Assembly (NCBI RefSeq): GCF_013204845.1 | Contig: NZ_JABMKY010000002.1 | Span: 620,001 to 684,000 of the forward strand | Length of the DNA stretch: 64,000 nucleotides | Reading direction: 5' to 3' | DNA from: Paenibacillus qinlingensis | GTDB taxonomy: Bacteria; Bacillota; Bacilli; Paenibacillales; NBRC-103111 | In this document: positions 13,257 to 15,673 of the stretch, piece by piece | How the letters are laid out: each line of letters begins with the position of its first letter | Position numbering within the stretch: the first letter of the stretch is position 1 | The notes under the pieces: model-generated | The model's input: only the letters and a program-made list of their open reading frames with translations | Told to the model about the DNA's origin: nothing | Database searches by the model: none | Made by a program: the position numbers and the translations under genes

Positions 13257-14018
13257 CTACACGGGGTTGCTTAACTGCTCCACAACTTCATCATACGAGA
13301 GCTTTCCACCGAAAATATCAAGGGCACTGCCGACCGTAATGTCTAACTTCCCTTGGGAAAGCTGTCGAAATAACGCCAAATCCTCAAATGATCTAGCACC
13401 GCCTGCATAGGTAGTTGGAATTGTGACCCACGCAGCTAATGAACTTACGAGACTTTGTTGAATACCACTCTGTTTCCCTTCTACATCAACCGCATGTATT
13501 AGAAATTCATCGCAATACTGTTCAAAGAACCGTATCGACTCTTGATTTAATTCCACATCACTTAACTGTTTCCATTGATTCGTTGCTACATACCACTTGC
13601 CATCTTTTTCTTTGCAGCTAAGATCAATAACTAATTTCTCTTTACCAATCGCTTCTACGATCCGCGTAAGATTATCCATATTCAGCTGACCATCGCGGAA
13701 GATATATGACGTTACAATGACGTGTGATGCCCCTTGCTCCAGGTAAAAGCTAGCGTTCTCCGCATGTATGCCGCCGCCAATTTGCAGTCCTCCAGGATAT
13801 GCCGCAAGTGCTTTTATAGCCTCTTCCTTGTTCCCATCGCCTAGCATGATAACGTGCCCGCCGGTTAAACGATCTCTTTTGAACATATCCGCGTAATAAG
13901 CGGAGTCATACGAAGACACGAAATTCTCAACAACAGCTTTCCCCTCGTCACCTAAGGTTTCACCGACGATTTGTTTCACTTTTCCGTTATGTAAATCGAT
14001 GCATGGTCTAAATTTCAT
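13257..14018 (-). CDS. hisA: HisA, ProFAR isomerase of the eukaryotic (HIS6) type
   Basis: A 253-residue TIM-barrel enzyme that converts ProFAR to PRFAR in histidine synthesis. The sequence follows the fungal/plant HIS6 subfamily rather than bacterial HisA. Telling segments are CIDLHNGKVKQIVG at the start, QIGGGIHAENA, VIDLSCKEKDGKWYVA, HAVDVEGKQSGIQQ, TYAGGARSFEDL and VGSALDIFGGKL. The catalytic Asp in CIDLH is kept. No other his gene is in the window. The ATG at 14018 follows AAAGGGG with wide spacing. A -10 TATAAT lies at 14075-14070, and the 19-copy repeat array begins just upstream. Co-transcription with the protease gene is likely. Confidence 0.88.
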   Translation of the reverse strand: MKFRPCIDLHNGKVKQIVGETLGDEGKAVVENFVSSYDSAYYADMFKRDRLTGGHVIMLGDGNKEEAIKALAAYPGGLQIGGGIHAENASFYLEQGASHVIVTSYIFRDGQLNMDNLTRIVEAIGKEKLVIDLSCKEKDGKWYVATNQWKQLSDVELNQESIRFFEQYCDEFLIHAVDVEGKQSGIQQSLVSSLAAWVTIPTTYAGGARSFEDLALFRQLSQGKLDITVGSALDIFGGKLSYDEVVEQLSNPV

Positions 14019-14069
14019 GACGTTATGTTTCCCCTTTGACATTCGTAATACTTGAACGATTTTCCATCT

Positions 14070-14096
14070 ATTATAACATAAAATAGCTGCTTGAAC
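14070..14096 (-). promoter_or_regulatory. Candidate hisA promoter
   Basis: On the minus strand a perfect -10 TATAAT (14075-14070) lies about 50 bases upstream of the hisA start. A weak -35 candidate GTTCAA (14096-14091) is at 15-bp spacing. CTTGAACG occurs on the plus strand at 14051-14058 and 14090-14097, flanking the -10, and could be an operator pair. The repeat array begins within 20 bases upstream. Confidence 0.5.
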
Positions 14097-14112
14097 GTAC
14101 CGATGCAAGCTG

Positions 14113-15080
14113 ACCTTGCGCGCAACTTTTGTGCGCTAGCGTGCGTGGCCGGCCCTTTCTTCGGCCTTGCGCACAATTTTTGTGCGCTAGCGTGCGGCGG
14201 CCGGCCCTTTCTTCAGCTTTGCGCACAATTTTTGTGCGCTAGCGTGCGGCGGTCGGCGCTTTCTTCGGTCTTGCGCACAACTTTTGTGCGCTAGCGTGCG
14301 GCGGTCGGCGCTTTCTTCGGTCTTGCGCACAACTTTTGTGCGCTAGCGTGCGGCGGCTGGCCCTTTCTTCGGCCTTGCGCACAACTTTTGTGCGCTAGCG
14401 TGCGGTGGCCGGCCCTTTCTTCGGTCTTGCGCACAATTTTTGTGCGCTAGCGTGCGTGGCCGGCCCTTTCTTCAGCCTTGCGCACAATTTTTGTGCGCTA
14501 GTGTGCGTGGCCGGCCCTTTCTTCGGCCTTCCGCACAATTTTTGTGCGCTAGCGTGCGAGGCCGGCCTTTTCTTCGGCCTTGCGCACAACTTTTGTGCGC
14601 TAGCGTGCGTGGCCGGCCTTTTCTTCGGCCTTGCGCACAACTTTTGTGCGCTAGCGTGCGGTGCCCGGCCCTTTCTTCGGCCTTGCGCACAATTTTTGTG
14701 CGCTAGCGTGCGAGGCCGGCCTTTTCTTCGGCCTTGCGCACAATTTTTGTGCGCTAGCGTGCGTGGCCGGCCCTTTCTTCAGCCTTGCGCACAATTTTTG
14801 TGCGCTAGCGTGCGGCGGCTGGACTTTTCTTCGGCCTTGCGCACAATTTTTGTGCGCTAGCGTGCGGTGGCCGGCCCTTTCTTCGGCCTTGCGCACAATT
14901 TTTGTGCGCTAGCGTGCGGTGGCCGGCCCTTTCTTCGGCTTTGCGCACAACTTTTGTGCGCTAGCGTGCGGCGGCCGGCTCTTTCTTCGGCCTTGCGCAC
15001 AATTTTTGTGCGCTAGCGTTGTGGCCGGCCCTTTCTTCGGCCTTGCGCACAACTTTTGTGCGCTAGGGTGCGTGGCCGGT
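14113..15080. repeat. Array of 19 tandem 50-52-bp repeats, each with an 8-bp inverted repeat
   Basis: The core GTGCGC recurs at 14131, 14182, 14234, 14286, 14338, 14390, 14442, 14493, 14544, 14595, 14646, 14698, 14749, 14800, 14852, 14904, 14956, 15008 and 15058, a period of 50-52. Each unit has GCGCACAA, a 3-base loop (YTT) and TTGTGCGC, then CTAGCGTGCG, a GGCCGGCC-like palindrome and CTTTCTTCGG. Units differ by scattered substitutions. Periods of 51 and 52 alternate, so no reading frame is kept through the array, and the repetitive open frames on both strands are by-products. It fills the space between the hisA promoter and the 3' end of the gene at 15194. Confidence 0.95.
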
Positions 15081-15135
15081 GGACTCACTCAGAAAGAGGA
15101 GCCTGATCTTTGAATTTTATACATGCTAAATTACA

Positions 15136-15160
15136 CAAAAAAGCCCTCCAAGGAGGGCTG
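15136..15160 (-). terminator. Terminator after the 15194-15673 gene
   Basis: AGCCCTCC (15142-15149) pairs with GGAGGGCT (15152-15159). On the minus strand the stem is followed by a six-T run. It ends the two-gene transcript from 15997 and separates it from the repeat array. Confidence 0.88.
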
Positions 15161-15193
15161 ATCCATCTGATTCAACATATCACTCTACTAAAG

Positions 15194-15673
15194 TTACTTC
15201 TTATCGAAACCTTCTTCTTCCAAATACTCTTGTACTTCTTCATACGTCTCAAAGGCACAATCGAGGTTTTCTCCTGCGTAGATATACCATAAATCTTCCA
15301 CGAAAGTTACACTCAACGTGTTGCCATCTTCATCCACCCAAATCTCTTCTTGAGGGTTTTGGACTTCCTCGACCTTCGAAATCTTAGGACTACCGCTGCG
15401 AGTTAAAGACTGAATCGACTTCGCAATGATTTCACGAAGCTCGTCTTCACTATAATCCCGAATATTAATTAAACCTTTGGCATCCACCGTACAACCTGGG
15501 ATGTATTCGGCATACACGAATCCATTTCCATTCGGGTGAAGATGATAAAGAACAGTTGTCTTCTCATAGTCACTTTCTAGATAATGAAAATTAATTCGTC
15601 CCAGTGAAACATCCTTACGCGCAAGTTCCGGGAAGGATGCTGCTATTGCTAACTTCTCGTCTAAACTAAGCAT
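15194..15673 (-). CDS. Conserved-looking protein of unknown function (159 aa)
   Basis: A soluble, acidic 159-residue protein with no signal peptide or membrane helix. It contains an aromatic-rich core (INFHYLESDYEKTTVLYHLH, then VYAEYIPG), a basic middle segment (SLTRSGSPKISKVEE) and a very acidic end (TYEEVQEYLEEEGFDKK). No family was recognised. It lies 15 bases after the 102-aa gene at 15689 and is followed by a clear terminator, so the two form an operon. Confidence 0.7.
   Translation of the reverse strand: MLSLDEKLAIAASFPELARKDVSLGRINFHYLESDYEKTTVLYHLHPNGNGFVYAEYIPGCTVDAKGLINIRDYSEDELREIIAKSIQSLTRSGSPKISKVEEVQNPQEEIWVDEDGNTLSVTFVEDLWYIYAGENLDCAFETYEEVQEYLEEEGFDKK

Follow-up and report, generated by a model that had tools for sequence, protein, structure and literature searches.

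A tandem array of 19 palindromic repeats in Paenibacillus qinlingensis belongs to a repeat family dispersed over the genome of this bacterium and a few relatives, and we give roughly even chances to the reading that this family is maintained and spread by a predicted Vsr/EDxHD-type nuclease-winged-helix protein, encoded beside one of its arrays. The array is located next to hisA in the 64,000-nucleotide stretch analyzed here (contig NZ_JABMKY010000002.1, positions 620,001 to 684,000, forward strand), which is referred to as the window. Genomes are labeled G000 (the window's genome), G001 (Root444D2), G003 (V4I3), G008 (P. plantarum), G012 (Soil750), G014 (Soil766), G017 (Soil787), and G023 (P. 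oryzisoli).

RESULTS

Constant core and array-specific spacers

Successive cores of the window array are 50 bp (once), 51 bp (seven times), or 52 bp (ten times) apart, and Tandem Repeats Finder delimited a repeat at 14114-15079 with a period of 52, 18.8 copies, and 92% matches. The left arm, GCGCACAA, is exact in 17 of the 19 copies and the right arm, TTGTGCGC, in all of them, which bears out the first-pass annotation of this DNA, where 19 units of 50-52 bp with near-invariant arms had been described. The constrained cells of the core (21 x 19) contain 2 substitutions, compared to 20 in 280 spacer cells taken from the ten units with the full length of 52 bp. Both palindromes that had been noted in each unit are real, the 8-bp inverted repeat as well as GGCCGGCC, but the latter sits in the variable spacer and differs between arrays.

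Searching the repeat unit in its own genome and in relatives, as had been proposed, revealed a dispersed family with 18 arrays in the window's genome (8.9 Mb in 60 contigs; 19 matches to the array query, two of them overlapping in one array). The constant part common to the arrays is a 24-bp core, TTGCGCACA-N3-TTTGTGCGCTAG. At up to 3 mismatches, the core pattern matched 186 times in this genome, compared to 0 matches for a reversed control pattern, and chance is therefore excluded. Each array of the window's genome has its own spacer of about 26 bp, which is uniform within the array; one spacer type is common to three arrays (L055, L062, and L063). Within arrays, spacers are 0.86-1.00 identical to their own consensus. 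This uniformity agrees with the earlier statement that the array is not a CRISPR locus. Comparing arrays within one genome (G000, G014, and G008) gave identities of 0.98-0.99 for the core consensus and 0.63-0.66, near the shuffled level, for the spacer. The unit periods of 51-52 bp correspond to about five helical turns, and some units of 104-114 bp hold two palindromes; the periods may reflect the spacing of bound dimers.

Distribution and shared sites

At up to 2 mismatches, the core was found in 8 of 60 genomes (the window's own included), all from one genus, of which 30 genomes were searched; 7 of these 30 have at least two cores. Among 299 genomes drawn from the class, the window's own was the only one with the core. 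A scan for the exact core in one genome per GTDB species, from which the window's own genome may be left out, returned 61 stretches, all from Paenibacillus (Soil766, Soil787, Soil750, Root444D2, V4I3, P. plantarum, and P. oryzisoli) except one from Cohnella lupini. The viral contigs scanned held no exact core.

Grouping by hand yielded 14 groups of arrays at sites common to two to four genomes. At the hisA site, for which a comparison of copy number had been suggested, there are 19 units in the window, 4 in P. plantarum, and 5 full cores in Soil766, with different spacers. Eight hisA loci were compared in total: three have the array, four have the site without it (G012, G023, G006, and G028), and in one the gene start was not located. 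The element at this site adjoins the T-run of the neighboring terminator. The tie to hisA in the first-pass annotation turned out to be incidental, as the family occupies 50 sites (shared ones counted once) beside other genes.

In 23 pairs of shared sites between species, which are not mutually independent, mean identity was 0.99 for the core and 0.80 for the spacer (shuffled, 0.60); flanks were about 88% identical in the 21 pairs where this was measurable. Judged by these identities, the core stays constant, while the spacer changes more quickly than unique DNA. The arms are conserved in relatives, with no random loss, and the spacers diverge, which lends good support to the earlier proposal of selection on a DNA element and not on a protein. 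Several arrays in G017 and G008 are located at contig ends, and because draft assemblies break within arrays, copy numbers there are lower bounds.

Element ends and strand polarity

Many arrays of G017 have a common frame, with the left end AAAATAGCCGC... and the right end ...GAAACTTATACTTTCT. Counted in the same arrays from which these motifs were derived, the left end was present at up to 2 mismatches in 20 of 69 arrays with enough flank (11 of the 20 in G017), compared to 0.35% of random pieces, and the right end at up to 4 mismatches in 27 of 69, compared to 3.9% of random pieces. Of the 41 arrays of G000, G008, and G014 combined, only 6 retain the left end; both ends are present in the window array. 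At the source locus, a short leader lies between the array and the nuclease gene, and its terminator is the left end. A conserved short leader of this kind (GGTCGTGAAG-N-ACACGCCGC, a hairpin, and GCGGCTATTTT) precedes the gene in Paenibacillus and Cohnella (L064, ~10095; L242, ~1066). It resembles a small RNA or attenuator and, in G017, accompanies arrays.

Because these bacteria have G-rich leading strands, the C-rich strand was taken as lagging. Of the 72 arrays or single cores compared in eight genomes, 70 have the core on the C-rich strand, as do 48 of 50 when shared sites are counted once; both exceptions are in G017 (L125 and L126). These 72 are the fetched stretches, the full listing having 97 rows, some of them overlapping pieces or contig-end matches, and G017 is represented by 23 arrays or cores compared to 36 listed rows. 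Genes and replication are usually codirectional. The rule holds for 20 of 21 arrays or cores with convergent neighbors and for 3 of 3 with divergent neighbors; where the neighbors are codirectional (n = 40), 39 agree with the skew and 39 run antisense to the genes. Eight have no neighbor on one side.

The linked gene for a predicted nuclease

In G000, G008, G014, G003, G001, G017, and Cohnella lupini, a gene encoding an approximately 226-residue protein has an array upstream, and this gene-adjacent array is found at the same place in several species. In the window's genome, the gene (G000:C44:378376-379053) has its own array beside it and lies away from the window array. Close copies (at least 78% identity over most of the protein) were detected only in G000, G008, G014, G003, G001, and G017 among 104 family genomes. 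The copy in G017 is broken by three stops, and G023 has only residues 148-226, with 86% identity. The genus genomes with at least two cores are exactly the seven with the gene or its remains (five intact, one broken, and one fragment; 30 searched), a strong co-occurrence, but one among related species. Next to the broken gene in G017, 14 copies of a 9-bp repeat, AAGATGGAG, are present (L256, 1369-1498), and the Soil787 protein P0007 starts with a long MEK-type repeat.

The protein is predicted to combine a Vsr/EDxHD-type nuclease domain with a C-terminal winged helix. Among the matches listed, the full-length model matched mainly via the winged helix, and the N-terminal domain was therefore modeled on its own; the predicted fold places the protein in the Vsr/DUF559/EDxHD nuclease superfamily. 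Profile matches among 54 members were weak (DUF559 in 42, best E value 1.9e-4; MTES_1575 in 26). Residues E64, E66, D78, E91, H98, R113, and R126 of P0001 are invariant in 54 sequences, which suggests nuclease activity. No nuclease was matched when solved structures were searched by sequence, and libraries of defense and phage proteins gave only weak matches, mostly to the winged helix.

Paralogous nucleases and their arrays

With paralogs at E values of up to 1e-10 included, 83 of 104 family genomes have a match. A tandem array was found nearby at 26 of 70 nuclease loci, namely, at all 6 close copies and at 20 of the 64 more distant loci. Among 40 selected paralog loci, 13 have an array, in 12 cases downstream of the gene; these loci were hand-chosen, not random, most of them exceed the 3.7-kb hisA control loci in length (up to 5.8 kb), and they were searched with slightly different repeat thresholds. 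Arrays were present at only 3 of 30 hisA control loci, all of the window's core family, leaving 0 of 27 outside this family, and none was found in 139 kb of control DNA, comprising seven stretches of G003 only.

At the distant loci, units recur every 50-117 bp and carry palindromes that are quite different. The palindrome exceeded shuffles at P values of up to 0.05 in 17 of 26 array units in all and in 11 of the 20 distant ones. Shared 10-mers were found in 21 of 22 pairs with at least 70% nuclease identity, 14 of 46 pairs with 50-70%, and 25 of 257 pairs below 50%. By this measure, related nucleases have related arrays, with near pairs also sharing DNA by descent. In P. plantarum, one nuclease is accompanied by the window's core and another by a GCTGGAT palindrome. 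At least three paralog array families are dispersed too. One of them, at twelve loci in G035, consists of TAGCGCAC-loop-GTGCGCTA with a 63-bp period and array-specific spacers, a design shared with the window array. Two paralog array families are polar with local skew, one at 11 of 12 loci and the other at 12 of 13; these tests covered 25 of the 40 loci L371-L410, with short, overlapping, and other-genome matches dropped before counting, flanks of about 1.5 kb a side, and gene strand not separated from replication.

The relatives L261-L265 and L267-L269 have 36-38% identity and mostly 222-residue frames. No 30-140-bp array was found near the gene at L261-L265, L268, and L269, and L267 has a 117-bp repeat 555 bp away. 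These relatives may represent a housekeeping branch.

Surroundings of the window array

The features of the array and its neighborhood are listed in Table 1. The neighboring hisA is of the eukaryote-like type (TIGR02129, 364 bits compared to a cutoff of 229 bits). A TATAAT, read by eye, is present on the minus strand at 14070-14075, about 40 bp from the first core, and a consensus promoter scan of 13900-15300 reported no promoter. At 14070-14093, the element end replaces DNA directly upstream of this TATAAT. Because array-free relatives carry other DNA at the corresponding place, the insertion may have changed the hisA promoter. Neither an RNA family (Rfam) nor a tRNA gene (ARAGORN) was found in the window.

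Table 1. Coordinates of the repeat array and adjoining features (positions in the window)
Feature	Position	Strand	Description
19-copy tandem array	14116..15068	+	core TTGCGCACA-N3-TTTGTGCGCTAGCG every 50-52 bp, spacer consensus TGCGGCGGCCGGCCCTTTCTTCGGCC
Exact core copy, example (copy 2 of 19)	14167..14192	+	8-bp inverted repeat GCGCACAA/TTGTGCGC within imperfect stem, one T-T mismatch
Left element end AAAATAGCTGCTTG	14080..14093	+	1 mismatch to AAAATAGCCGCTTG (leader-terminator end of nuclease gene at source locus)
Right element end GAATTTTATACATGCT	15112..15127	+	2 mismatches to GAATTTTATACTTTCT
Intrinsic terminator of upstream minus-strand gene	15142..15159	-	element adjoins its T-run (comparison with empty sites)
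hisA, eukaryote-type (TIGR02129)	13257..14018	-	neighbor only; in relatives also without array
Neighboring open reading frame	15194..15673	-	no NCBIfam match; 3' end faces array

DISCUSSION

Our observations establish an association between arrays and a gene, from which we infer recognition, cutting, and copying by the nuclease, as well as the copying route, the strand acted on, and the reason for terminator-proximal sites. We propose that the nuclease binds the core, perhaps as one dimer per unit of about 51 bp, and nicks or cuts one or both strands there, probably when a replication fork exposes the core on one strand, with the fork setting access or repair. Break repair would expand or shrink the array, and now and then it would copy the element, consisting of the array and its short ends, beside another terminator. 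Paralogous nucleases would do likewise with their own palindromes.

Several observations weigh against this proposal. The main difficulty is G017, which has the most matches of the core family (36) and yet a broken gene, which requires the assumption of a recent gene loss; in G012, a single core occurs in the absence of a close gene copy. MTES_1575 scores of 17.4 and 20.1 bits (two proteins) are below the curated cutoff of 38.2, and Foldseek alone gave no match below an E value of 0.001. No array was present in the flanks read at 44 of 64 paralog loci, 9 of 26 units are without a palindrome beyond shuffles, all among the 20 distant ones, and at a few of the 20 distant loci with an array (L266, L267, and L343, 355-557 bp from the gene), the repeat is perhaps coding. 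Scored by loop, the G035 family is not polar, with 4 of 12 loci following the rule, which weakens a general polarity rule for all array families. No clean target duplication was seen in the comparison of hisA sites. Core copies were collected at up to 5 mismatches, and strongly decayed copies would be missed. The folded core has one stem mismatch, T facing T in 527 of 548 copies, and changes in the stem were one-sided in 121 cells and compensated in 3; covariation sought over the 548 copies was not found. Since the changes are one-sided, they do not favor a folded hairpin over a double-stranded dimer site, and the core may be read as either a duplex or a hairpin.

Alternatively, the arrays might serve the host as binding platforms, on which the nuclease-winged-helix protein or another bound protein marks replication direction, organizes the chromosome, or regulates neighboring genes, with selection keeping core, period, and orientation. 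The near-invariant core over 548 copies, the period of about five helical turns, the orientation along the skew, and the sites common to species are in line with this idea. We nevertheless regard it as unlikely, since the patchy presence (at least two cores in 7 of 30 genus genomes), the array-free state of the same site in close relatives, the copy numbers of 19, 4, and 5 where arrays are present, and the G017 copies with shared ends fit a mobile family better. A role in defense or self-recognition, in which the nuclease would cut foreign or unprotected DNA and the arrays would be decoys, memory, or antidote, is brought to mind by the several diverse nuclease paralogs per genome with different arrays, resembling defense-gene diversification. 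Given the weak defense-library matches, the lack of the exact core in the scanned viral contigs, and spacers that hardly vary inside arrays, such a role is quite improbable. Neutral minisatellites arising via slippage, with the gene linkage as a by-product of shared descent, would account for fast spacer divergence and variable copy number at the same site. However, core and spacer would then drift alike, whereas they differ both at shared sites (99% versus 80%) and between arrays of one genome; the polarity and the arrays beside distant paralogs but not control loci would be left unexplained. This already disfavored explanation thus has little probability. It had been offered in the first-pass annotation together with a binding array and a nucleoid site, and the link to the nuclease-winged-helix gene and the larger class had been missed. 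A Y1 HUH transposase acting on lagging-strand single-stranded hairpins, as in REP/RAYT or IS200/IS605 systems, is barely credible despite the palindromic extragenic repeats, the strand polarity, and the tandem REP arrays described in PMC3116915, whose orientation is mirrored between two sides of the Pseudomonas fluorescens SBW25 genome, since PF01797 (Y1_Tnp) matches in 0 of the 8 core-bearing genomes; it matched in 2 of 20 genomes searched, both without the core, and this enzyme was rejected as the mover.

The nuclease-array system shares with REP/REPIN-RAYT (TnpA-REP) dispersed extragenic palindromes as small non-autonomous elements, and repeat families are tied to specific enzyme genes located beside their own repeats. 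Here, however, the enzyme is a predicted Vsr/EDxHD-type nuclease with a winged helix, without a Y1 HUH match, and the units are direct tandem repeats with array-specific spacers, not inverted doublets. By analogy, we read the system as working like REP/RAYT but relying on an unrelated enzyme; it does not belong to that group because the defining Y1 enzyme has no match in the eight core-bearing genomes. IS200/IS605 elements, according to PMC6006769, act on the lagging-strand template and recognize secondary structures, but no transposase match of that family (PF01797) was obtained in these genomes. The alternation of a constant palindromic repeat and a similarly long variable part is reminiscent of CRISPR; unlike in CRISPR, the spacers of one array resemble each other, the linked gene was not recognized as a cas gene, and arrays are many and dispersed.

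Vsr repairs T:G mismatches. The predicted nuclease fold and the weak DUF559 and MTES_1575 profile matches link the protein to Vsr/DUF559/EDxHD endonucleases such as Vsr and I-Bth0305I, none of which was described with dispersed palindromic arrays in the literature searched. EDxHD enzymes are homing endonucleases, and a long dimeric target was reported for I-Bth0305I (PMC3943268). A homing endonuclease gene moves into the cut site; the dispersal followed here was that of arrays with short ends.

Somewhat more tentatively, at just short of even chances, these data may point to a new class of bacterial repeat systems, in which diverse Vsr/EDxHD nuclease-winged-helix proteins, several per genome, each copy their own palindromic array family in step with replication, the array orientation recording fork direction. 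Such a class would be a counterpart of REP/RAYT with a homing-endonuclease-like enzyme. A literature search, judged from listings and with most subscription journals and preprints outside its reach, found no description of this nuclease-array pairing. The sources annotate related proteins as response regulators, DUF559 proteins, or short-patch-repair endonucleases (120 listed of 749 hits). If our reading is true, this large, poorly named protein group would gain partners and a testable function, and bacteria would have a second enzyme class behind dispersed palindromic repeats. The cores would then provide ready substrates for binding and cutting assays, and strand polarity would offer a handle on array growth at replication forks.
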